Assembly (NCBI GenBank): GCA_029979185.1
Contig: JAPOIA010000002.1
Location: forward strand, 12,460-44,936
Length of the DNA: 32,477 nt
From: Alphaproteobacteria bacterium
GTDB taxonomy: Bacteria; Pseudomonadota; Alphaproteobacteria; Rhizobiales; Beijerinckiaceae
Reading direction: 5' to 3'
This document shows, piece by piece, positions 5,118-25,793 of this stretch. A model generated the notes under the pieces. It saw only the letters and a program-made list of their open reading frames with translations. It was not told the origin of the DNA and made no database searches. Positions within the stretch are counted from its first letter, which is position 1, and each line of letters starts with the position of its first letter. A program made the position numbers and the translations under genes.

Positions 5118-6089
5118 TTACTTTTCCGGCACTTCCAGTCCGGTCGGGATCGGCACGCCTTCGCTTTCCAGTTTTATGCCGGAGGCCAGCGCATGGGTTT
5201 CCAGCAGGGCGGCAAAATCGAGCCCGAGATAATGCTCCGGATCGTCCTGCAGGGTGGCCACGCCGAAATGGTTCTGTAGAGCCTCGCGGGTTGCGGCGGT
5301 GGAGGGCATCGGCACATTGTACTTGCGGCCGGCAGCGAGGCCGAGATCGAGATCCTTGCGCAGCAGTTCGGGTGTAAATGTCGTTGTCCAGTCGAGATTG
5401 ACCAGCGAATTGGACTTGTAGCGCGTAAAGGTCGAACCCATTACCGAGTTGTTCATGAAATCGAGAAAGGCATGACGCGGCACGCCATGCTTTTGCGCCA
5501 GAATGGTAATCTCGATCAGGTTCTGTATCACCACGCCGAGCATGACATTATGGGCGATCTTGCAGATGCGCGCGAGCTCGCCTTCGCCGACATAAGAGGT
5601 GCCGGCTTTGGCAAACGTATCGATATAGGGCCTGACGGTTTCAAAGGCGGCTTTCGACCCGGACGCAACCGTTGAAAGTTTACCGGCCTTGACGCATTTG
5701 CCGTTGCCGGAGACCGGGACGGCCAGGTAGTCGGCGCCGAGTTCATTCAGCTTGCCACGGATTTCTTCCGATTCCTCAACGCCGATGGACGAACAATCGA
5801 CGAAAATCTTCGGCACCTTGCCCTTGCCGCCGGAGGCGACGCCGTTTTCGCCGAAGTAGACTTGCTTCAGGTCCTTGCCGGTAGCGACCATGGTGAAGAT
5901 GATATCGACATTGCCGAGATCGGATGGCTTGTCGACCAGCTTGGCGCCCTTTGCGGCAAGCGGCTCTGCCTTCGAGCGCGTGCGGTTCCAAAGGCTGACG
6001 TCGTGACCTGCCTTCAAAAGCAGTTCTGCCATCGGCGTTCCCATGCGGCCCATGCCGATCCAGCCGAGGCGATGTGTATTCTGGCTCAT
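5118..6089 (-). CDS. NAD(P)-dependent beta-hydroxyacid dehydrogenase (3-hydroxyisobutyrate dehydrogenase family)
   Basis: 323 aa; LGWIGMGRMGTPMAELLLKAGHDVSLWNRT Rossmann motif, DCSSIGVEESEE, PVSGNGKCVKAGKLSTVASG, ICKIAHNVMLG. Confidence 0.9.
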   Translation of the reverse strand: MSQNTHRLGWIGMGRMGTPMAELLLKAGHDVSLWNRTRSKAEPLAAKGAKLVDKPSDLGNVDIIFTMVATGKDLKQVYFGENGVASGGKGKVPKIFVDCSSIGVEESEEIRGKLNELGADYLAVPVSGNGKCVKAGKLSTVASGSKAAFETVRPYIDTFAKAGTSYVGEGELARICKIAHNVMLGVVIQNLIEITILAQKHGVPRHAFLDFMNNSVMGSTFTRYKSNSLVNLDWTTTFTPELLRKDLDLGLAAGRKYNVPMPSTAATREALQNHFGVATLQDDPEHYLGLDFAALLETHALASGIKLESEGVPIPTGLEVPEK

Positions 6090-6137
6090 GCGTGTCTCCT
6101 GAAAATGCGCAGCGCGTTGTGTGGAATTACTGCGGCG

Positions 6138-7472
6138 TTAGTTGAATTCGGCGCTCCAGTCGCGGGTTTCGAGAATGGTCTTCACCTGCCCAAGGAATGA
6201 CGCGGAGTAGGCGCCGTCGAAAGCGCGGTGATCGAAACTCTGGGCGAGGATGCCGGCGGGGCGCGCGACGATGACATCGCCATATTCCGTTTCCTTCACC
6301 AATGCGCGTTTGGAGATGCGGTCGGTTGACAGGATCGCAACCTGCGGCGCGTTGATGAGCGGCGCTGTAAACAGTGTTCCGAAGCTGCCGTTGTTGGTGA
6401 TGGAATAGGTGCCGCCCTCCATGTCGTCCGGCGTCAGCTTGCCCTCGCGCGCCTTCTGAGCAAGTGCGTTGATGGCCAACGCCAGACCGGCAACATTGAG
6501 ACCGTCGGCATTCTTCACAACCGGCACCACCAGGCCCTGATGGTCGATGTCGACGGCGAAGCCGAGATTGACGCTGCGGGCGATGTGCAACTTCTCGCCG
6601 TCGAAAGCTGCGTTGACTTTCGGAAAAACGCGCAGCGCAAGGCAAATTGCGCGGGCGATAAAGGGCAGATAGGTGAGCGACAGACCGTGTGCTTTCCGGA
6701 AGGCATCCTTCTGGGCAAGGCGCACGTTGTCGACGAAGCCGAAATCCACTTCCACCGTCTGCAACACATGCGGCACCTGTTGCCAGGAACCCTGCAGATG
6801 ACGCGCCGTTTGCTGGCGGATGCGGTTGAGCGGCTCGACATCGCGTTCGCCGGTGATCGGCATGAGCGGGGCAGCCGCAGCGCGCATCATCGCCGGTGCG
6901 GCAAGGGCCGCCTGCACGTCCTTCGCCGAAATTTTTTCGCGACCGGCAGCGCGCACCTGCGATGCAACAGAGGCTGCATCGAGATTATTCTGCTTGATAA
7001 GGCGGCGGGCCAGCGGCGAAATGCGCATGCCGTCGGGCAGTCTGGCCGGACCGAAGTTGCCGCGCGATGTAAATACCTCGTTGAAGGGTGCGAAACCGCG
7101 CTCTTCCAATGAGGCAGTCGGTGCGGCTTGCGGCGCGGGTGCAACGGGTTTTGGCGGGGCCGCTGCCGGTGCAGGTACCGGTTTGGCGGCCGAGGCAGGT
7201 GCAGGCTGTTGCTTCGGCGGTGCGGCGGGCGACTTGCCGGAACCGTCGTCGATGAATGCGACGACCGCCCCTGTTCCCACGGGTTCCCCGGCCTTGACAT
7301 AGACGGCAGAGAGCACGCCGCTTTCAATAGCCTGCACTTCCATCGACACCTTGTCTGTCTCGATCTCGAACAGGTTATCGCCGGCGGCAACCTTGTCGCC
7401 GGGCTGCTTGAACCAGGCCGAGATCGTGCCTTCTTTCACGGTCTCGCCAAGTTGCGGCATCAGCACGTCCAT
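6138..7472 (-). CDS. 2-oxo acid dehydrogenase complex E2 (dihydrolipoamide acyltransferase)
   Basis: 444 aa; lipoyl domain with ETDKVSMEV, Ala/Pro-rich linker, PSBD (RISPLARRLIKQNNLD...), catalytic SFDHRAFDGA. Confidence 0.93.
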   Translation of the reverse strand: MDVLMPQLGETVKEGTISAWFKQPGDKVAAGDNLFEIETDKVSMEVQAIESGVLSAVYVKAGEPVGTGAVVAFIDDGSGKSPAAPPKQQPAPASAAKPVPAPAAAPPKPVAPAPQAAPTASLEERGFAPFNEVFTSRGNFGPARLPDGMRISPLARRLIKQNNLDAASVASQVRAAGREKISAKDVQAALAAPAMMRAAAAPLMPITGERDVEPLNRIRQQTARHLQGSWQQVPHVLQTVEVDFGFVDNVRLAQKDAFRKAHGLSLTYLPFIARAICLALRVFPKVNAAFDGEKLHIARSVNLGFAVDIDHQGLVVPVVKNADGLNVAGLALAINALAQKAREGKLTPDDMEGGTYSITNNGSFGTLFTAPLINAPQVAILSTDRISKRALVKETEYGDVIVARPAGILAQSFDHRAFDGAYSASFLGQVKTILETRDWSAEFN

Positions 7473-7497
7473 CTATCGTCTCCCGCGTTCGTGCTGG

Positions 7498-8949
7498 TTA
7501 CCATTCAACCGAGATGTATTGTGTCTCGAGGAATTCCATCAAACCCTCATGCGCTCCTTCGCGGCCGATGCCCGACTGCTTGACGCCGCCGAACGGCGCC
7601 GCCGGATCGGATACCAGACCCCGGTTGAGGCCGATCATGCCGAATTCCAGCTTTTCGCTCATCGCCATTCCGCGCTTCAGGTTCTTCGTATAGAGATAGG
7701 CAACGAGGCCGTATTCGGTATCGTTGGAACGGCGGATGACATCCTCGTCGCTGGAGAAACTCTGCAGCGCTGCGACCGGCCCGAAGATTTCATCGCTCAG
7801 CAGGTCCGCATTGTCTGGCACATTCGTCAGCACGGTCGGTGTGTAGAAATAGCCCTTGGTGTTGGGCCGCGTGCCGCCGGTCAGCAGCTTTGCGCCCTTC
7901 TTCACTGCATCTTCGACAAAGTATCCGACCTTGTCGCGGGTCTCTTCATTGACCAGAGCGCCGACGTTGATGCCGTCGTCAAGGCCATTGCCCATCTTCA
8001 GTGCCTCGAACTTCTTCACCAGCTTGCCGGCGAATTCGTCATGCACCTTGTCGTGTACATAGAAGCGGTTCGCGGCGGTGCAGGCTTCGCCCATGTTGCG
8101 CATCTTGGCGATCATTGCGCCTTCAACGGCGGCATCGACATCGGCGTCCTCGCAGACGATGAAGGGTGCATTGCCGCCGAGTTCCATGGCCGTGTTGACT
8201 ATGCAGTCGGCAGCGCCATGCAGCAGCTTGCGGCCGACTTCCGTCGAGCCGGTAAAGGAAATGATGCGCACGCGCGGATCGTGCAGCAGCTTGTCGACGA
8301 CAGCGCCCGACTTCCGCGAGGGGATGATGTTGACGATGCCCTTCGGCACGCCGGCCTTTTCCAGGATCGGCATCAGCGCCAGCATCGTCAGCGGCGTTTC
8401 GGATGCCGGCTTGCAGATCACCGGGCAGCCGGCGGCAAGGGCGGGGCCGATCTTGCGGGTCGCCATGGCGGCGGGGAAGTTCCACGGCGTTACCAGAACG
8501 CCAACGCCTACCGGCTTGTGATGGGCGATGATGCGAGCGCCCGTGGACGGGCCCACCGAGATTTCGCCGATGTTGCGAACGCCTTCCTCGGCGTACCAGC
8601 GGAAAAATTCGGCTGCATAGGCAACCTCTCCCATGGAGTCCGACAAGGCCTTGCCGTTTTCCAGTGTGATAAGTTTCGCCAGTTCCTTCTGCTCGGCCAT
8701 CATCAGCTCGAAGGCCTTGCGCAGGATTTCGCCGCGCTCGCGCGGTTTGCGGGCGGCCCATTCGGCAAATGCGGCCTGCGATGCGTCAAGCGCTTTCATG
8801 GCGTCCGCTTCGCTGGCGCTGGCGACGGAGGCGATCACTTCTTCGGTTGCCGGATTGAGCACGTCGAAGCGCTCGCCGCTTTCAGATGGCACGAAGGCGC
8901 CGTTGATATACAGGTCGGTCGGAACTTCGATGTTGAGATCGAGCGACAT
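7498..8949 (-). CDS. NAD(P)-dependent aldehyde dehydrogenase, succinate-semialdehyde dehydrogenase-like
   Basis: 483 aa; VTPWNFPAAM, FTGSTEVGRKL, MELGGNAPFIV, NMGEACTAANRFYV, FGGVKQSGIGREGAHEGLMEFLETQYISV. Confidence 0.92.
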   Translation of the reverse strand: MSLDLNIEVPTDLYINGAFVPSESGERFDVLNPATEEVIASVASASEADAMKALDASQAAFAEWAARKPRERGEILRKAFELMMAEQKELAKLITLENGKALSDSMGEVAYAAEFFRWYAEEGVRNIGEISVGPSTGARIIAHHKPVGVGVLVTPWNFPAAMATRKIGPALAAGCPVICKPASETPLTMLALMPILEKAGVPKGIVNIIPSRKSGAVVDKLLHDPRVRIISFTGSTEVGRKLLHGAADCIVNTAMELGGNAPFIVCEDADVDAAVEGAMIAKMRNMGEACTAANRFYVHDKVHDEFAGKLVKKFEALKMGNGLDDGINVGALVNEETRDKVGYFVEDAVKKGAKLLTGGTRPNTKGYFYTPTVLTNVPDNADLLSDEIFGPVAALQSFSSDEDVIRRSNDTEYGLVAYLYTKNLKRGMAMSEKLEFGMIGLNRGLVSDPAAPFGGVKQSGIGREGAHEGLMEFLETQYISVEW

Positions 8950-8987
8950 GGTTTCTCCCTTTGTATGGTGCAGTTCAGTTCACGAGA

Positions 8988-9965
8988 TCAATTCATGGAC
9001 TGAACGATTTTCTGCACGATGCGTTGCGGCGTCGGCAGGACGATATCTTCGAGGTTGTCCGCTGCGGGGAGCGGAATATGCGGTGTGGTGATGCGAACGA
9101 TCGGTCCGTCGAGGTCGTAGAAGCATTCGTCCGCAGCGATGGATGCGATCTCGGCGCCCCAGCCGCACAGGCGCGGATTTTCTTCCACTGTGAACAGGCG
9201 TCCCGTACGCGATACGGAACCGAGGATGGTTTGGGTATCGAGCGGCACCAGCGAGCGTACATCGATCACTTCGCAGTCGATACCGTGATCGCGCGCCAGA
9301 ATGTCGGCCGCTTCCAGGGCGCGCGGCACCATCAATGCCAGGGCGATGATGGTGGCGTCCTTGCCGGCGCGCAGGATTTTCGCGGTACCGAGCGTATCGA
9401 GGATTTCGCCATCCGGTACTTCGCCCTTCACGGCATACAGCGACTTGTGCTCGAAGAAGATCACCGGGTCGGGATCGCGCACGGAAGCCGCCAGCAGGCC
9501 GATCACGTCGGCGGGGCTTGAGGGAGCCACGACTTTCAGGCCGGGGATCATCATCGCCCAGTTTTCGACCGACTGGGAATGCTGGGCTCCAAAGCGCGAG
9601 CCTGCGCCGTTGCCGGTACGCACCACCAGCGGGCATTTGGTCTGGCCGTTCGACATGTACCGGCTCTTGGGAAATTCGTTGGCGATGAAATCGAAGCAGA
9701 CAGCGAGAAAGTCCGAGAACATGATTTCGGCGATGGGCTTGAGGCCGGTCATCGCCGCGCCCATGGCGGCGCCCAGGATCGCCTGTTCGGAAATCGGCGT
9801 ATCGCGCACGCGCAGGGGACCGAATTCATCGTAGAGGCCGACCGTCGCCTTGAACACGCCGCCGGCCTTGGCAACGTCCTCGCCGAGGAACACGACGTTT
9901 TCGTCGCGCCGCATTTCCTGGGCAATGCCGCGGGCCACCGCTTCGCGATAGGTTAGTTCGGCCAC
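8988..9965 (-). CDS. 2-oxo acid dehydrogenase E1 beta subunit
   Basis: GTG start at 9965 preceded by GGAGG; VAELTYREAVARGIAQEMRRDENVVFLGEDV...RVRDTPISEQAILGAAMGAAMTGLKPIAEIMF. The ORF-track start at 10376 overlaps E1-alpha and is not used. Confidence 0.92.
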   Translation of the reverse strand: MAELTYREAVARGIAQEMRRDENVVFLGEDVAKAGGVFKATVGLYDEFGPLRVRDTPISEQAILGAAMGAAMTGLKPIAEIMFSDFLAVCFDFIANEFPKSRYMSNGQTKCPLVVRTGNGAGSRFGAQHSQSVENWAMMIPGLKVVAPSSPADVIGLLAASVRDPDPVIFFEHKSLYAVKGEVPDGEILDTLGTAKILRAGKDATIIALALMVPRALEAADILARDHGIDCEVIDVRSLVPLDTQTILGSVSRTGRLFTVEENPRLCGWGAEIASIAADECFYDLDGPIVRITTPHIPLPAADNLEDIVLPTPQRIVQKIVQSMN

Positions 9966-10096
9966 CTGGGTTCCTCCACAATCAATATCGCATTCCGGAA
10001 AATCGCGTACCCTTAGCAGGGAAATTTGCCGCGCTCCATTTCCGACAGTCCAAATGTCCCGGATTGCGCCATGCGTTTCCGGGATGACACTTCTGT

Positions 10097-11179
10097 TCAG
10101 TTCCGCCAGGCCCAGCCGCCGTCGGCGTAGACATCCGTGGTCATGATTTCCTCCGGCGGCAGGGGCGCAGCCTTGCAGTTTTCCACCGCCTGATCGAGTT
10201 CCTCGTCGATGGCCTTTTCTATCTTCTTTATCTGCGCTTCCTTGATGCCGAATTCGGCAAGCCGTTCGCGGTAGATTTTCACCGGATCGCGTTTTAGCCA
10301 TTCCTCCAGTTCGCCCTTGGGCCGGTAGGCGCCTGGGTCGGCGCGCGAATGGCCGGAGTGGCGATAGGTCTTGCATTCGATGAGCGAGGGGCCGCCGCCG
10401 GAGCGGGCCTTTTCCAGTGCTTCCTGCGCGACACGATAGACCGCATCGGCGTCGTTGCCGTCGACAATGATCTTCGGCAGTCCATAGGCCGGTGCGCGGT
10501 CGGCGGCTGGATGTTCGACAGCCGTCACATCGCCAATCGGGGTATATTCCATATACAGGTTGTTTTCGCAGACGAAGACAACCGGAAGGTTCCAGATCTT
10601 GGCGAAATTCAGCGCTTCGTGGAATGCGCCAATGTTCGTGGTGCCGTCACCGAAGAAGCAGACCGACACATCGTCATGGCCGAGATATTGCGCCCGCCAG
10701 GCCGCGCCGCAGGCAATCGGCAGATGTGCGCCGATGATGGCGTAGGAGCCCATCACGCCATGTTCTTCCGATGTCAGGTGCATGGAGCCGCCCTTGCCGC
10801 GCATCAGGCCGTTGTCGCGCTGCATCAGTTCGCCGAGCATCTTTTCCATCGGCACGCCGCGGGCCAGCGTATGGGCATGGCCACGATAGGTGCAGAAGGA
10901 CTTGTCGCCCGGTTTCATGGCTCCTGCGAACCCGGCGGCAATGGCTTCCTGTCCGAGAGACAGATGGCTGGTGCCCTTGACGAGATTCTGCAGGAAGAGG
11001 TCGTAGGCTTTTTTCTCGCAGACGCGGATCTCGTATTGCAACCGGTACAGTTCCAGCCGGGTATCGGCGCCGATGTCGTCGTTGACGCCGGCGCGCTTGC
11101 CCGCAGCTGCGGATTTTGCAGCCGATGGCTTCTTTGCAGGTGCGGCTTTCCTTGCACGCGCGGCAGCGGGCTTTTTCAT
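10097..11179 (-). CDS. 2-oxo acid dehydrogenase E1 alpha subunit with Lys/Ala-rich N-terminal tail
   Basis: 360 aa; TPP motif GDGTTNIGAFHEALNFAKIWNLPVVFVCENN; HLSLGQEAIAAGF; YRHSGHSRADPGAYR. N-terminus MKKPAAARARKAAPAKKPSAAKSAAAGKRAG. Confidence 0.93.
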   Translation of the reverse strand: MKKPAAARARKAAPAKKPSAAKSAAAGKRAGVNDDIGADTRLELYRLQYEIRVCEKKAYDLFLQNLVKGTSHLSLGQEAIAAGFAGAMKPGDKSFCTYRGHAHTLARGVPMEKMLGELMQRDNGLMRGKGGSMHLTSEEHGVMGSYAIIGAHLPIACGAAWRAQYLGHDDVSVCFFGDGTTNIGAFHEALNFAKIWNLPVVFVCENNLYMEYTPIGDVTAVEHPAADRAPAYGLPKIIVDGNDADAVYRVAQEALEKARSGGGPSLIECKTYRHSGHSRADPGAYRPKGELEEWLKRDPVKIYRERLAEFGIKEAQIKKIEKAIDEELDQAVENCKAAPLPPEEIMTTDVYADGGWAWRN

Positions 11180-11207: not shown

Positions 11208-12512
11208 TCAGTAGCGGTTGGCGATCGGCAGTTCTTCCGCCGGGAACAGGCTGATAACCTGACAGCCCTTGTCTGTCACGACAACCTCTTCCTCGATGCG
11301 TGCGGCGGAGAACCCGTCCGCTGCCGGGCAATAGGTTTCCAGCGCGAAGACCATGCCGGTCTTGATTTCCATCGGATTTTCGAGGGAGACCAGGCGCGAG
11401 ATGATCGGCCGCTCGTGCAGGGCAAGGCCAAGACCGTGGCCGAACTGCAGGCCGAAGGCAGCCAGTTCGTTCGGGAAGCCGAATTTCTCCGCCTTCGGCC
11501 ATACCTTGGCGACCGTGTCGGTGGAAACGCCGGGCTTGATCAGCGCGATGGCGTCATCCAGCCATTCGCGGCACTTCTTGTAGGCGTCGCGCTGTACATG
11601 GTTGGCGCGGCCGATATTGAAGGTGCGGTAGTAGCAGGTGCGATAGCCCTGGTAGCTTTGCAGAATGTCGAAGAAAGCCTGATCGCCGGGGCGGAAATAG
11701 CGATCTGTGAAGTTGTGCGGATGCGGGTTGCAGCGCTCGCCGGAAATGGCGTTGATCGCTTCCACGTCGTCCGAGCCCATTTCGTAGAGCATCTTGTTGG
11801 CGAGGGCGACAATGTCGTTTTCGCGCACGCCCGGTTTCAGCTCCTCGTAGATCATGTGATAGACGCCATCGACCATGGAGGCTGCCTGGTTGAGCAGCAT
11901 GATCTCGTCGATGTTCTTGATCTCTCGCGCGTCGAGCATGACCTGCTGGCCGTCGACCACGTTCATGCCGGCCTTCTGCAGTTCGAAGAACATGGCGGTT
12001 TCGGCAACGTCGACACCGACCTTCAAGTCGGAGACGCCGGCCTGCTTCAGAAGGTCCATCACTTCTTCGGCGTGATATTTCATCAGTCCGACGGAGGGTG
12101 GGACAGTGCCGCGCATGCCCAGCATGCCGGCGCGGCAATTGTCGGGGGCCAGCCAGTCGCTGTAGAGTTTGTGGTGGACGGCGGCGGAACCGAAATCCCA
12201 CAGGATCGGCTCGTTGTCGCCGGCCAGAAGCGCAAAGCGGCAGAACTTGTCGCGCTCCCATTCGCCGATCTTGGTGCCGGTGACGTAGCGGATGTTGTTG
12301 ACGTCGAACAGCAGCAGCGCGCCGCAGTCGGAGTTCTTAAGAGCCTGGCGGGCGCGGGCGAGGCGGTAGGTGCGCAGGCGGTCGTGGTCGACCCGGCGCT
12401 CAAAATCCACGGCCATGTGGCCCGGTGCGCCAATCGGGCGGTTCCAGTGCCAGTGCGGATCGATTTCGCCGGGTTTCACGATATTCGGCCGCAGTGCGTT
12501 TCCTGGATTCAT
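11208..12512 (-). CDS. M24-family (pita-bread fold) Xaa-Pro peptidase-like protein
   Basis: Start MNPGNALRP at 12512 with GAGG upstream; GHGLGLALHE, FALETYCP, ARIEEEVVVTDKG. The position of the second metal Asp is Cys (RTCYYRTF). Confidence 0.88.
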   Translation of the reverse strand: MNPGNALRPNIVKPGEIDPHWHWNRPIGAPGHMAVDFERRVDHDRLRTYRLARARQALKNSDCGALLLFDVNNIRYVTGTKIGEWERDKFCRFALLAGDNEPILWDFGSAAVHHKLYSDWLAPDNCRAGMLGMRGTVPPSVGLMKYHAEEVMDLLKQAGVSDLKVGVDVAETAMFFELQKAGMNVVDGQQVMLDAREIKNIDEIMLLNQAASMVDGVYHMIYEELKPGVRENDIVALANKMLYEMGSDDVEAINAISGERCNPHPHNFTDRYFRPGDQAFFDILQSYQGYRTCYYRTFNIGRANHVQRDAYKKCREWLDDAIALIKPGVSTDTVAKVWPKAEKFGFPNELAAFGLQFGHGLGLALHERPIISRLVSLENPMEIKTGMVFALETYCPAADGFSAARIEEEVVVTDKGCQVISLFPAEELPIANRY

Positions 12513-18274: not shown

Positions 18275-19369
18275 TCACTGCGCCGCTTCGGTAATTGTCT
18301 CGGCCGCCATTGACCCTTCGAATGCCGGCGCCACCTCCTCGGCGAAGCGTTGCATCGTTTCGCGGACATAAGGGTCAGGTGCATTGCCAAAGTTGAAGTA
18401 CAGTATCACTTCGTCGATGCCGATGGCCTCGACCTTCTTCAGGCTGTCGATGATCTGCTGCGGCGAGCCGTAGAGCATGGAATTGTCGTCGAAGTCGCCA
18501 TGCTTTGGATCGTTCAGCGCGGCGCCAATCTGTTTGAAATACTGCATCGATTCCGGCAATTGCCCCTTGCCGCCCTGGCTCATGGTCTTTCGCATCCCGG
18601 CCATGGTGATGTAGTTGATCATCCGTTCCTGAGCCTTGTCGTGGTCGCCAGGCTTGTCGCCGAGGTGGATGAAGTAACTGCACTTGACCTTGCGGACCGG
18701 CTTGTTCTTCTGTTCGCAGATTTCCTTGTAGGCCGCGACGGCGTTGCCGAGATTGCCGAACAGCACAGTCGTGGCGAAGGGCGCCAGCAGAAGGTTCCAG
18801 TCCCATTCGGCGGCAAGGCCCATGGAGAAGCGCGAGAACGAAGCCATGTAGGGGCGGAAGGTTTTCTGGAACATCTTCGGCTGCACGTCGACATTCTCGC
18901 ACTGGTAGAACTTGCCGTGGAACGAGAATTCGCCGGTCTCGTGCCAGCATTTGTGCAGCAACTCCAGCCCTTCGGCGAATTGTTCCGCCGACTGCTGGAA
19001 GTCGACGCCGAACGGCGTGAACTCGTGGCTGTCGTAACCGCGCCCGCAGGCGAAATCGACGCGCCCTCCGGACAATTGGTCGATCGTCGCCCATTCTTCG
19101 GCAACGTATATCGGGTGATGGATCGGCAGCACCACGACCGCGGGCGCAAGGCGGATGCGGGTGGTGGCTGCGGCGATGTTGGCCAGCATGATCGAGGGCA
19201 TGGAAACGCAGCCGCGCCGGTTGAAATGGTGTTCGCCGATCCAGGCGGAGTGGTAGCCAAGCTTTTCCGCCAGAATCGACTGGTCGCGGATTTCGAGGTG
19301 GAACTGTGCCGGAGTGCGCGGATTATCCGGATAGCGATTGTCGCTGAGCGTGAAATATCCGAATTTCAT
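18275..19369 (-). CDS. LLM-class flavin-dependent oxidoreductase (luciferase-like)
   Basis: Start MKFGYFTLSDNRYPDNPR with GAGGAG upstream; AWIGEHHFNRRGCVSMPSIMLANIAAATTRIRLAPAVVVLPIHHPIYVAEEWATIDQLSGGRVDFACGRGYD. Confidence 0.92.
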   Translation of the reverse strand: MKFGYFTLSDNRYPDNPRTPAQFHLEIRDQSILAEKLGYHSAWIGEHHFNRRGCVSMPSIMLANIAAATTRIRLAPAVVVLPIHHPIYVAEEWATIDQLSGGRVDFACGRGYDSHEFTPFGVDFQQSAEQFAEGLELLHKCWHETGEFSFHGKFYQCENVDVQPKMFQKTFRPYMASFSRFSMGLAAEWDWNLLLAPFATTVLFGNLGNAVAAYKEICEQKNKPVRKVKCSYFIHLGDKPGDHDKAQERMINYITMAGMRKTMSQGGKGQLPESMQYFKQIGAALNDPKHGDFDDNSMLYGSPQQIIDSLKKVEAIGIDEVILYFNFGNAPDPYVRETMQRFAEEVAPAFEGSMAAETITEAAQ

Positions 19370-19504
19370 GGGGCGTTTCTCCTCACTGCAATCTGGTTGG
19401 CGCTTGTGCCAGCGCTTCGCGAGCATTCCGGCTGCCTTTGTTGCGATAATTTGCCTGTTCCGGCAGCAGAACGCAAGCAAGCCTGCATCGCGCTTGCCAG
19501 CGCG

Positions 19505-21992: not shown

Positions 21993-22823
21993 ATGACAAG
22001 TGGGAATTTGTCCGGCAATGGCGCCGGTTCGACGATCGACCAGTCGGTAATTGAAGATCTTGCTGCCCGGCTCCGGCAGGCGGAAGCCACGGGCGTGGCC
22101 ATCGCACCGATCCGCGATGGCCTTGCGGGCGGCGGCGTGCAGGCCGCCTATGCTGTCCAGTCCGCGAACACGGCCTGGCATGTCGCCAACGGCCGGCGGA
22201 TCGTCGGGCGCAAGATCGGTCTGACCGCCAAGGCCGTGCAGGCCCAGCTCGGCGTCGATTCACCGGACTTCGGCATGCTGTTTGCTGATATGGAAGTGGC
22301 CGACGGCGAGGAGATCGCGCAGTCCCGGCTGATGCAACCGCGGGTCGAGGCTGAAATCAGTCTCGTTCTGGGCCGCGACCTGACCCAGGAGCAGCTTGGC
22401 ATCACCGAGGTCATGTCGGCGATAGAATACGCACTGCCATCCATCGAGATCGTCGGCAGCCGTATCGAGAACTGGAATATCCGCCTGCTCGATACGGTTG
22501 CGGACAATGCATCGTCCGGGCTTTTCGTGCTGGGCGGACGGCCGGTGAAGATCGACGCATTCGACTGGCGGCTGTGCGGCATGGTCATGGAGCGGCGTGG
22601 CGAGCAGATTTCGCTCGGCGCCGGGGCGGCGTGTCTCGGCAATCCGCTGAATGCGGCGCTCTGGCTGGCGCGCACCATGGTGGAGGCGGGCGCTCCGCTC
22701 AGGGCCGGGGATATCATCATGACAGGGGCGCTGGGGCCGATGGCGATCGCAGCGCCCGGGGACGTTATCGAGGCGCGGATCAACGGTTTGGGGTCCGTCC
22801 GCGCCGTTTTTGGAAACGAATAA
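21993..22823 (+). CDS. mhpD: 2-keto-4-pentenoate hydratase
   Basis: 276 aa from the ATG after [83 protein letters not shown]. Confidence 0.9.
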
Positions 22824-22841
22824 GTACAAGGGGTAGATGAC

Positions 22842-23762
22842 ATGGCAGCACCCAAAGTTGCAGCACGCAAGCCGGCAGCCGCAAAAAAGACGGCAGCAAA
22901 AAGACCGGCTCGCCGCGCCGCAACGAAGCCAATGACAAAGCCGGCACAAGGCGCAAAGAAGAAAGCCGCCAAACCGGTAGGCCAATCGAGGATCAAGACA
23001 AATATCAAGGCGCTGGCTCGCAATCTCGACAAGGCCGCCCAGGAGGCAAGGCCGATCGAGCAGATTTCCGCCACTACGCCGATCAGCCTCGATCAGGCCT
23101 ACCAGATCCAGAAGGAGGCGATTGCCCTGCGGATGTTACGCCGCGAGCAGCGCGCCGGCATCAAGATGGGCTTCACCAGCCGCGCCAAGATCGCGCAGAT
23201 GGGCATTGGCGATCTGATCTGGGGCCGCCTGACGGATGGCATGATCATCGAGGAAGGCGCGCCAATCGATTTCTCTACCTATATCCATCCGCGCGTCGAA
23301 CCGGAGATTGCATTCCTGCTGAAACGCCCGCTCTCGGGCCGCATCACGCCGATGCAGGCGATGGAAGCGGTGGAAGCCATTGCGCCGGCGCTGGAAATCA
23401 TCGACTCGCGCTACAGCAACTTCAAGTTTTCGCTTGAGGATGTTGTGGCCGACAACGCCTCGTCGTCCGGTTTCGTTACCGGGCCCTGGCAGATTCCGGA
23501 TTTCGATTTCGGCAATCTGGGGCTGGTGCTGTCGTTCAACGGCAAGCCGGTGCAGATCGGTTCGACGGCTGCAATCATGGGCCATCCGTTGCGCTCGCTG
23601 ATTGCCGCTGCGCGTTTTGCCGGCGAGGCGGGCGAGCCGCTGATGCCGGGCTGGATCGTCATGGCGGGCGGGGCGACAGCTGCCGAGCCGCTTGTTGCGG
23701 GCCAGTATGTCGAACTCGAAATGGAAAACATGGGCCGCGTCGCTTTCGGCGTATCTAGCTGA
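22842..23762 (+). CDS. 2-oxo-3-hexenedioate (4-oxalocrotonate) decarboxylase-like protein with histone H1-like Lys/Ala/Pro N-terminal tail
   Basis: 306 aa; core [33 protein letters not shown]...[16 protein letters not shown]...[32 protein letters not shown]. Tail [53 protein letters not shown] 8 nt before the ATG. Confidence 0.88.
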
Positions 23763-23823: not shown

Positions 23824-24765
23824 ATGGCAAAAGTGAAATGCGCGATTATCGGATCGGGCAATATCGGCACCGACCTGATGATCAAGATCATGCGCACGGC
23901 GAAGAACCTCGAAATGGCCGCCATGGTCGGCATCGATCCGCAATCCGATGGCCTCGCACGCGCGGCACGGCTGGGCATTCCCACGACCCATGACGGCGTA
24001 GAGGGCCTCAAGTCCATGCCGGGCTATGGCGACATCGGGATCGTGTTCGATGCGACTTCCGCCCGTGCGCATGTTGCCAATGACGCGGCGCTGCGCGGAG
24101 ACGGCAAGAAGATTATCGACATGACGCCGGCCGCCATCGGTCCGTTCAACGTTCCTGTGGTCAATCTCGACGACAATATCGATGCGCCGAATGTGAACAT
24201 GGTGACCTGCGGCGGGCAGGCGACGATCCCCATCGTGCATGCGATCAAGCAGGCTTCCGGACGGGTCATCTATGGCGAGATCGTTGCATCCATCGCTTCG
24301 AAGTCCGCCGGGCCGGGCACGCGCGCCAATATCGACGAATTTACCGAGACAACCTCCAAAGGCATCGAGACGGTGGGCGGCGCTGAAAAGGGCAAGGCGA
24401 TCATCGTGCTCAACCCGGCCGAGCCGCCGCTGATGATGCGCAACACGGTCTTCACGCTCTCGCAGGGCGGTAACCGCGAGGCCATCGAAAAGTCCATCGA
24501 GGAGATGGCGGCGCGGGTGAAGAGTTATGTGCCCGGCTATCGGCTCAAGCAAAAAGTGCAGTTCGAAAGTATCGGCGACAATGCGCCGGTCAATATCCCC
24601 GGTATCGGCCCGTGCTCGGGTCTCAAGACGACAGTCTTCATCGAGGTGGAAGGCGCGGCGCATTACCTGCCTGCCTATGCCGGCAATCTCGACATCATGA
24701 CGTCTGCCGCGCTGGCCACGGCCGATCTGTGGGCGGAAAAGGTTCAGGCACGGGAGCTGGTGTAA
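23824..24765 (+). CDS. mhpF: acetaldehyde dehydrogenase (acetylating)
   Basis: 313 aa; [79 protein letters not shown]-track start at 23692 overlaps the upstream gene and is rejected. Confidence 0.95.
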
Positions 24766-25793
24766 TGGCGCGGCGCGATCCGAACAAACTCTATGTGCAG
24801 GATGTAACCTTGCGTGACGGCATGCACGCGATCCGCCATCAATATGGCATGGAGCCGGTGCGGGCGATCGCGCGGGCGCTGGATGCGGCAAAGGTGGATG
24901 CTGTCGAGATCTGCCATGGCGACGGCATACGCGGCTCGTCGTTCAATTACGGTTTTGGCCAGCATTCTGACAATGACTGGGTGGCTGCCGTAGCGGAAGA
25001 ACTGAAGCACGCCGTGGTGACCGTATTGCTGATTCCGGGCATCGGCACCGTTCACGATCTGAAGGAAGCCTATGCGCAGGGCGCACGTTCTGTGCGCATC
25101 GCGACCCATTGCACGGAAGCGGACGTGTCCGCCCAGCACATGGAAGCGGCGCGCAATCTCGGCATGGATACGGTCGGCTTCCTGATGATGGCGCATATGA
25201 CGCCGGTCGATAATCTGGTCGCGCAGGCGAAGATCATGGAAGCTGCGGGCGCCGAATGCGTCTACATCACCGATTCCGCCGGAGCGCTGCTGCCTGGGCA
25301 ATATGCCGAGCGGGTGAAAGCCTTCCGCGATGCGCTGAAGCCGGAAACTGAGATTGGCGTGCATACCCATCACAACCTGACGATGGGCGTAGCCAATGCG
25401 GTGGCCGGCATTGAGCAGGGCGCGGTGCGGGTTGATGCCTCGCTCGCCGGGATGGGCGCGGGGGCCGGCAATGCGCCGCTCGAGGCGCTGGTCGCCGTAC
25501 TCGACCGCATGGGTATTGAGACGGGCTGCGATCTCAACCTGCTGATGGACGCTGCCGACGATCTGGTGCGTCCGCTGCAGGATCGGCCGGTGCGGGTGGA
25601 CCGGGAAAGCCTGTCGCTCGGCTATGCCGGGGTCTATTCCAGCTTTCTGCGCCATGCGGAGAATGCCACGAAGCTTTATGGCGTCGATACGCGCTCGCTG
25701 CTGAATGAACTGGGCCGGCGCCGCATGGTTGGCGGGCAGGAAGACATGATCGTCGATGTCGCGCTGGATTTGCTGAAGCAGGATACGAAATAG
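24765..25793 (+). CDS. mhpE: 4-hydroxy-2-oxovalerate aldolase
   Basis: 342 aa; [86 protein letters not shown] overlap with mhpF. Confidence 0.95.

Follow-up and report, generated by a model that had tools for sequence, protein, structure and literature searches.

The closest described relatives of the enzyme considered here are the 4-oxalocrotonate decarboxylases of the XylI/DmpH/NahK kind, which form bifunctional complexes with a partner hydratase according to literature cited in PMC10470539; the solved entry 8ih6 holds hydratase and decarboxylase chains, five of each. Polycationic tails have been described on other proteins: the KPAA-rich tail of AlgP matters for the spacing of polyphosphate (polyP) granules, and related peptides bind DNA (PMC9239181); the eukaryotic-like tail of mycobacterial HupB is called indispensable in the title of PMC5676037; and for HU and AlgP tails of such composition, DNA binding or the marking of polyP granules is described in PMC5676037, PMC5974015 and PMC9239181. 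Lys-rich regions are also found among polyP-binding proteins. By definition, a PASK region contains 20 consecutive residues of which 75% or more are D/E/S/K, K included, and the Lys-rich disordered N terminus of Escherichia coli YihI binds polyP though it has no strict PASK motif (PMC12345225). Here, a decarboxylase-type gene with a histone-like N-terminal tail is described from the window, by which we mean the whole 32,477-nucleotide stretch of a Beijerinckiaceae genome that was analyzed (positions 12,460 to 44,936 of contig JAPOIA010000002.1).

Gene block and enzyme identity

The gene (22842-23762, plus strand, 306 aa) lies among the following features.

21993-22823, plus strand, stop included: 2-keto-4-pentenoate hydratase, the partner gene (NF008461, 354.6 bits, above cut-off)
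22828-22833, plus strand: Shine-Dalgarno-like AAGGGG, 8 nt before the ATG at 22842
22842-22991, plus strand: codons 1-50, polycationic K/R/A/P tail (net +16, no D/E), with homology to tail-less relatives beginning at about residue 51-55
22932-22934, plus strand: ATG within the tail (Met31), in theory another possible start but lacking a good ribosome-binding site (RBS); it would leave a tail of about 20 aa
22992-23762, plus strand, stop included: core of the FAA_hydrolase fold, 4-oxalocrotonate (2-oxo-3-hexenedioate) decarboxylase type (PF01557, TIGR03218, 8ih6_F)
23824-24765, plus strand: acetaldehyde dehydrogenase (acetylating), the next step in the lower meta pathway (PF09290)
24762-25793, plus strand: 4-hydroxy-2-oxovalerate aldolase (PF00682 and PF07836)

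The core matched Pfam PF01557 (5.6e-12), and its best solved relative was 8ih6_F, a 4-oxalocrotonate decarboxylase (E=6.7e-84, 285 bits, ungapped over 250 residues), while the hydratase chain 8ih6_A reached only 110 bits; among NCBIfam models the protein scored best with TIGR03218 (209.6 bits), followed by TIGR03220 (152.6) and NF008461 (117.8). It thus has the FAA_hydrolase fold and is closer to decarboxylases than to hydratases, and the genes for the hydratase, acetaldehyde dehydrogenase and aldolase are adjacent. Three glutamates of the decarboxylase (E153, E155 and E185), invariant in a small alignment, are presumably metal ligands, from what is known of the fold. Because 209.6 bits falls under the TIGR03218 equivalog cut-off (350.55 bits), the enzyme is filed as decarboxylase-type only, as what its sequence indicates to be a divergent branch, and its probable substrate is taken from the similarity to 8ih6 and from gene order. 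With the hydratase upstream and the dehydrogenase and aldolase downstream, the genes therefore read as a lower meta-cleavage block in the order hydratase, decarboxylase, dehydrogenase, aldolase.

Luciferase-like monooxygenase genes adjoin this block in the window (18275-19480, minus strand) and in sister genomes G013 and G020 (loci L132 and L133), G013 having four of them together with an FAD monooxygenase. No extradiol dioxygenase was seen among the annotated window genes. The adjacency suggests a ring-cleavage route that may begin with luciferase-like flavin enzymes.

A polycationic tail ahead of the catalytic core

The sequence-only reading had proposed that the first 47 residues (22842-22982) form an AlgP/H1-like tail, and its counts of 11 Lys, 4 Arg, 16 Ala and no acidic residue are exact. 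The label was borne out as far as composition goes, the tail being K/A/P-rich and strongly positive with few acidic residues, and its placement outside the hydratase/decarboxylase fold agrees with the PDB relatives 8ih6, NahK and MhpD, all of which align only from residue 51-58. When 49-residue segments were drawn at random, with residue frequencies taken from 20 other CDS segments of the window, a net charge of +16 was reached in 0 of 200,000 draws (maximum, +14), and the probability of 49 residues without D or E was about 0.003. From this composition and its absence in solved relatives, the arm is probably exposed and disordered; an AlphaFold model built from four sequences had a mean pLDDT of 36. 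A search inside the tail for a terminator or promoter returned only two minus-strand stem-loop-like matches, at about chance level, and a genome search with the tail as protein query gave noise apart from the known genes because its composition is of low complexity.

Translation start

The tail-inclusive start is well supported by the surrounding sequence. AAGGGG does stand at normal spacing, 8 nt 5' of this ATG, as had been noted, and the hydratase stop TAA (22821-22823) lies 18 nt upstream of it. Equivalents of AAGGGG occur at the same place in three sister species (AAGAAGGAA, AAGAAGGAAAA, and GGGGAAGAAG), in each of which the tail has its own ATG, about 20 nt past the hydratase stop, with a purine-rich RBS. 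The further claim that no good start follows the tail also held: the sole start codon in or after it is ATG22932 (residue 31), which is preceded by CGCAACGAAGCCA and no good RBS. Were translation truly to begin there or at the core, the tail would be leader DNA, and a Met31 start would indeed leave a tail of about the sister-species length. Such a misassignment is nonetheless very improbable, since the sister tails start at ATGs that each have an RBS and stand equally far from the hydratase stop, since Met31 lacks an RBS, since the substitutions between sister tails are of coding type, and since only GTG codons without support as starts occur near the core in G020 and G013.

Conservation and selection in sister species

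Among the 51 genomes of the genus that were covered, the window's own included, three further genomes carry the decarboxylase gene; a search of genome contigs returned three loci, of which two (L001 and L002) apparently duplicate G020 and G013, the DNA around the start being identical. The tail was present in all four genus orthologues in the same arrangement. Those of the sister species, MAAKKPASKKKPAAKAPAKRV (G020), MAAKKPVNKKKPAAKAAAKRV (G013) and MATKKPSKKSVAKPAERKSDKKKAASASRRA (G003), are 21, 21 and 31 residues long with net charges of +8, +8 and +10, and the four tails together have 32-39% K/R and 0-2 acidic residues. As length varies from 21 to 50 residues, no precise motif is kept; the sequences indicate an arm conserved in charge and not in length.

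Between G020 and G013, the tail differed by 9 synonymous changes (14.8 sites) and 3 nonsynonymous changes (45.2 sites), which gives a dN/dS of 0.056 (p=3.6e-4; core, 0.022), and no K/R residue was altered. For this one species pair, over 20 codons, the substitution pattern is that of a translated, selected peptide and indicates purifying selection on the tail. These data bear on the alternative that the tail is mainly an expression or solubility leader, a disordered start rich in Lys and Ala codons that would ease initiation and folding and have no binding partner. The low third-position GC of the window's tail (0.52, versus 0.78 in the core) fits the A-rich initiation region that such a leader would provide; against it, synonymous changes were free while amino acids, above all K/R, were kept, so the peptide, beyond its codons, appears to be selected. 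We regard the leader as an unlikely explanation, if a serious contender.

Distribution and origin

Alignment of homologues had been proposed as a way to see whether the tail recurs by clade, and it clearly does. Outside the genus, a comparable tail was found in 0 of about 50 orthologues, which start at the core or have no more than about 10 basic residues ahead of it; these were mostly 50-63% identical and represented further genera within the family, order and class, as well as Burkholderiales and enterobacterial plasmids. In a 63-row tree, the four tailed proteins formed one clade (support, 100/99), for which the nearest named group was a tail-less set from Caballeronia, Cupriavidus and enterobacterial plasmids. 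In at least two loci of that tail-less set (L081 and L083), gene order is as in the window and the decarboxylase start overlaps the hydratase stop. The simplest history, on this sequence evidence, is a single gain of the arm, within one lineage and where the hydratase and decarboxylase genes meet: a 4-oxalocrotonate decarboxylase of ordinary catalysis would have acquired a flexible polycationic N-terminal arm, placed after the hydratase stop codon and before its own former start. Selected tails in four species with close relatives that lack them amount to a natural experiment on a catabolic enzyme, one in which a tree can locate the gain and the choice between an adaptive tether and a solubility leader becomes decidable.

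Several further observations accompany this comparison. Locus L083 is on the conjugative IncC/IncR plasmid RCS46_p of E. coli (NZ_LT985249.1), where the lower meta-cleavage block is complete (tautomerase, hydratase, decarboxylase, dehydrogenase and aldolase); its decarboxylase ranks among the nearest relatives of the window gene that lack a tail. Two loci of one distant alphaproteobacterial genus (L064 and L066, in G1032 and G935) have Arg/Ala-rich starts of about 10 residues (MARASRRLAIDV.. and MMARAARRAAPDI..), possibly an independent, shorter basic leader. A scan of viral contigs for relatives found none.

Charge and possible function of the arm

The tail raises the calculated pI of the window decarboxylase from about 5.4 to 9.9; across the four species, cores have pI 5.4-6.0 and full proteins 9.4-9.9. 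The partner hydratases of the tailed species have pI 4.8-5.4, that of the window (pI 4.8, net -9) being without a tail, and the window aldolase has a net charge of -13. If five chains of each kind assemble as in 8ih6, the arms (+80) would by calculation, not measurement, roughly offset the cores (about -65). The arm, in our analysis, most likely binds polyanions loosely and multivalently by electrostatics, with solubility as a side benefit, a reading held at a little under even confidence. By analogy with the solved hydratase-decarboxylase assembly of five chains each, several arms would hang outside each acidic complex and tether it, by multivalent electrostatic contacts, to anionic macromolecules, as do the K/A/P tails of HupB, AlgP and PhaF; the enzyme pair would then be weakly drawn near the nucleoid, RNA, polyphosphate or acidic partner enzymes, and its solubility would be raised. 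Polyphosphate kinase was found in all four tailed genomes, which keeps polyP among the candidate partners.

A more specific role would be that of an assembly arm for the lower-pathway complex, binding the acidic hydratase, the aldolase or the dehydrogenase and helping to pass on the dianionic intermediate. The charges of the window hydratase and aldolase fit such a role, as do the bifunctional decarboxylase-hydratase complexes reported in the literature that PMC10470539 cites and seen in 8ih6. However, tail-less relatives from Caballeronia, Cupriavidus and the E. coli plasmid have equal gene order and similarly acidic partners (hydratase pI, 4.6-6.2), and the hydratase is for that reason not singled out as the target; an assembly arm is in our estimate improbable, though with the expression or solubility leader it is one of the two main rivals. 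Targeting to a microcompartment or encapsulin shell has been proposed for the N-terminal extension (30-35 residues) of the ARO dioxygenase in Actinobacteria, where another meta-cleavage pathway is presumed to lie inside a shell (PMC10470539). Because searches of the four tailed genomes, of which one is about 100% complete, turned up neither BMC shell (PF00936) nor encapsulin (PF04454) genes, a shell scaffold barely enters consideration here.

Other basic leaders in the same genomes

Across roughly 505 kb of the genome that contains the window, a census based on codon-usage scoring found a K/A/P-rich basic N terminus in 3 of 479 called genes, counts that are approximate given the simple start choice and threshold. 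One of the three is the decarboxylase; the others are as follows.

L253:1198-1554: HU-family DNA-binding protein (PF00216) with an N-terminal histone H1-like tail, starting MVKAAAKKAPAKKAPAKKAAATK... (tail, MVKAAAKKAPAKKAPAKKAAATKSAAATT)
11081-11179, minus strand: K/A/P tail MKKPAAARARKAAPAKKPSAAKSAAAGKRAGVN, the first 33 codons of a gene (10097-11179) for a 2-oxoacid dehydrogenase subunit of E1-alpha type (PF00676)

In the stretches examined from G013 and G003, the same census returned the decarboxylase only, and in G022 one doubtful case. The rarity of such leaders within the sample argues against a general solubility leader on the decarboxylase. The E1-alpha subunits, on the other hand, speak for one, as their basic Ala-rich leaders are common across the order and variable in length and sequence, as expected for loosely constrained solubility leaders.

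The E1-alpha gene lies 12 kb from the decarboxylase and scored 328 bits against TIGR03182, below cut-off. Its leader, at 33 aa, is the longest in the genus comparison; MKKPxxKKxAAP-type leaders were found in G003 (MKKPAAKKAPAK..), G013 (MKKPVTKKAAAP..) and G020 (MKKPVNKKAAAP..) (loci L135, L136, and L137), G022 and G024, which are without the decarboxylase, have MTVAEAIVNDDIG, and basic Ala/Lys-rich leaders are common on the order's more distant E1-alpha proteins. For the E1-alpha leader, the substitution counts (3 synonymous and 2 nonsynonymous changes, p=0.09) did not establish selection. A shared DNA origin of the decarboxylase, E1-alpha and HU tails was considered and set aside, as only 9- to 12-nt matches were found. 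The gene belongs to a block at 5118-11179 (minus strand) that encodes E1-alpha, E1-beta, an aldehyde dehydrogenase, a lipoyl E2 and a 3-hydroxyisobutyrate-dehydrogenase-like protein and looks, from its sequences, like a non-housekeeping 2-oxoacid dehydrogenase cluster. Its E1-beta has an N-terminal extension of about 130 residues ahead of the transketolase domain, and its E1-alpha and E2 score under the NCBIfam equivalog cut-offs.

That decarboxylase and E1-alpha tails co-occur in the same four species is suggestive, though the four possibly form just a single branch within the genus. Judging from the E1-alpha tails, basic arms may be a lineage habit on multi-subunit metabolic enzymes, not tied to one reaction, which counts against an assembly arm specific to the lower meta pathway. 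In a bolder version, one lineage would have put the same histone-like arm on two unrelated multienzyme complexes, the meta-pathway decarboxylase-hydratase and the 2-oxoacid dehydrogenase E1, tethering both to one common polyanion, for instance the nucleoid or polyphosphate granules; this we consider a long shot. We know of no description of metabolic enzymes being localized by histone-like arms on a shared polyanion.

Comparison with known systems

To the XylI/DmpH/NahK decarboxylases (8ih6 and 5d2f-5d2k), the likeness lies in the alignment of the core and in the gene neighbors; unlike in the window enzyme, there is no room for a tail in 8ih6, where the match begins at chain residue 5. Stopping at the core, the family's reference structures would not reveal the tail. 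No histone-like polycationic tail on a catabolic enzyme was found in the solved structures or in the literature searched.

The sequence-only reading had also entertained a PASK-like target of lysine polyphosphorylation. The likeness to PASK and PASK-like regions (yeast Nsr1 and Top1; the YihI N terminus) is that of a Lys-rich, presumably disordered terminal region, but PASK regions are acidic and serine-rich and the window tail is not: its best 20-residue stretch has a D/E/S/K fraction of 0.30, against the 75% required, and those of the sister tails reach 0.40, 0.35 and 0.70, so that the PASK reading fails. The E1-alpha leaders of the order are N-terminal, basic, variable in length and carried by one subunit of a multienzyme complex, as is the decarboxylase tail; they differ in belonging to another enzyme and fold and in being spread across the order, whereas the decarboxylase tail is confined to one genus lineage.

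In composition the tail resembles the extensions of AlgP, PhaF, mycobacterial HupB/MDP1 and this genome's own HU, which are Lys/Ala/Pro-rich, of low complexity, almost free of acidic residues and situated beyond the folded domain. It differs from them in being N-terminal and short, with at most one KPAA unit, whereas AlgP has at least 25; a search for tandem KPAA/PAKK repeats found 0 or 1 KPAA in each of the four tails. The domain to which those extensions are attached is DNA or granule binding, whereas here it is a catabolic enzyme. The histone-like polycationic tail is, in short, of a known kind, and its occurrence on a catabolic enzyme is, against the solved structures and the literature searched, new.
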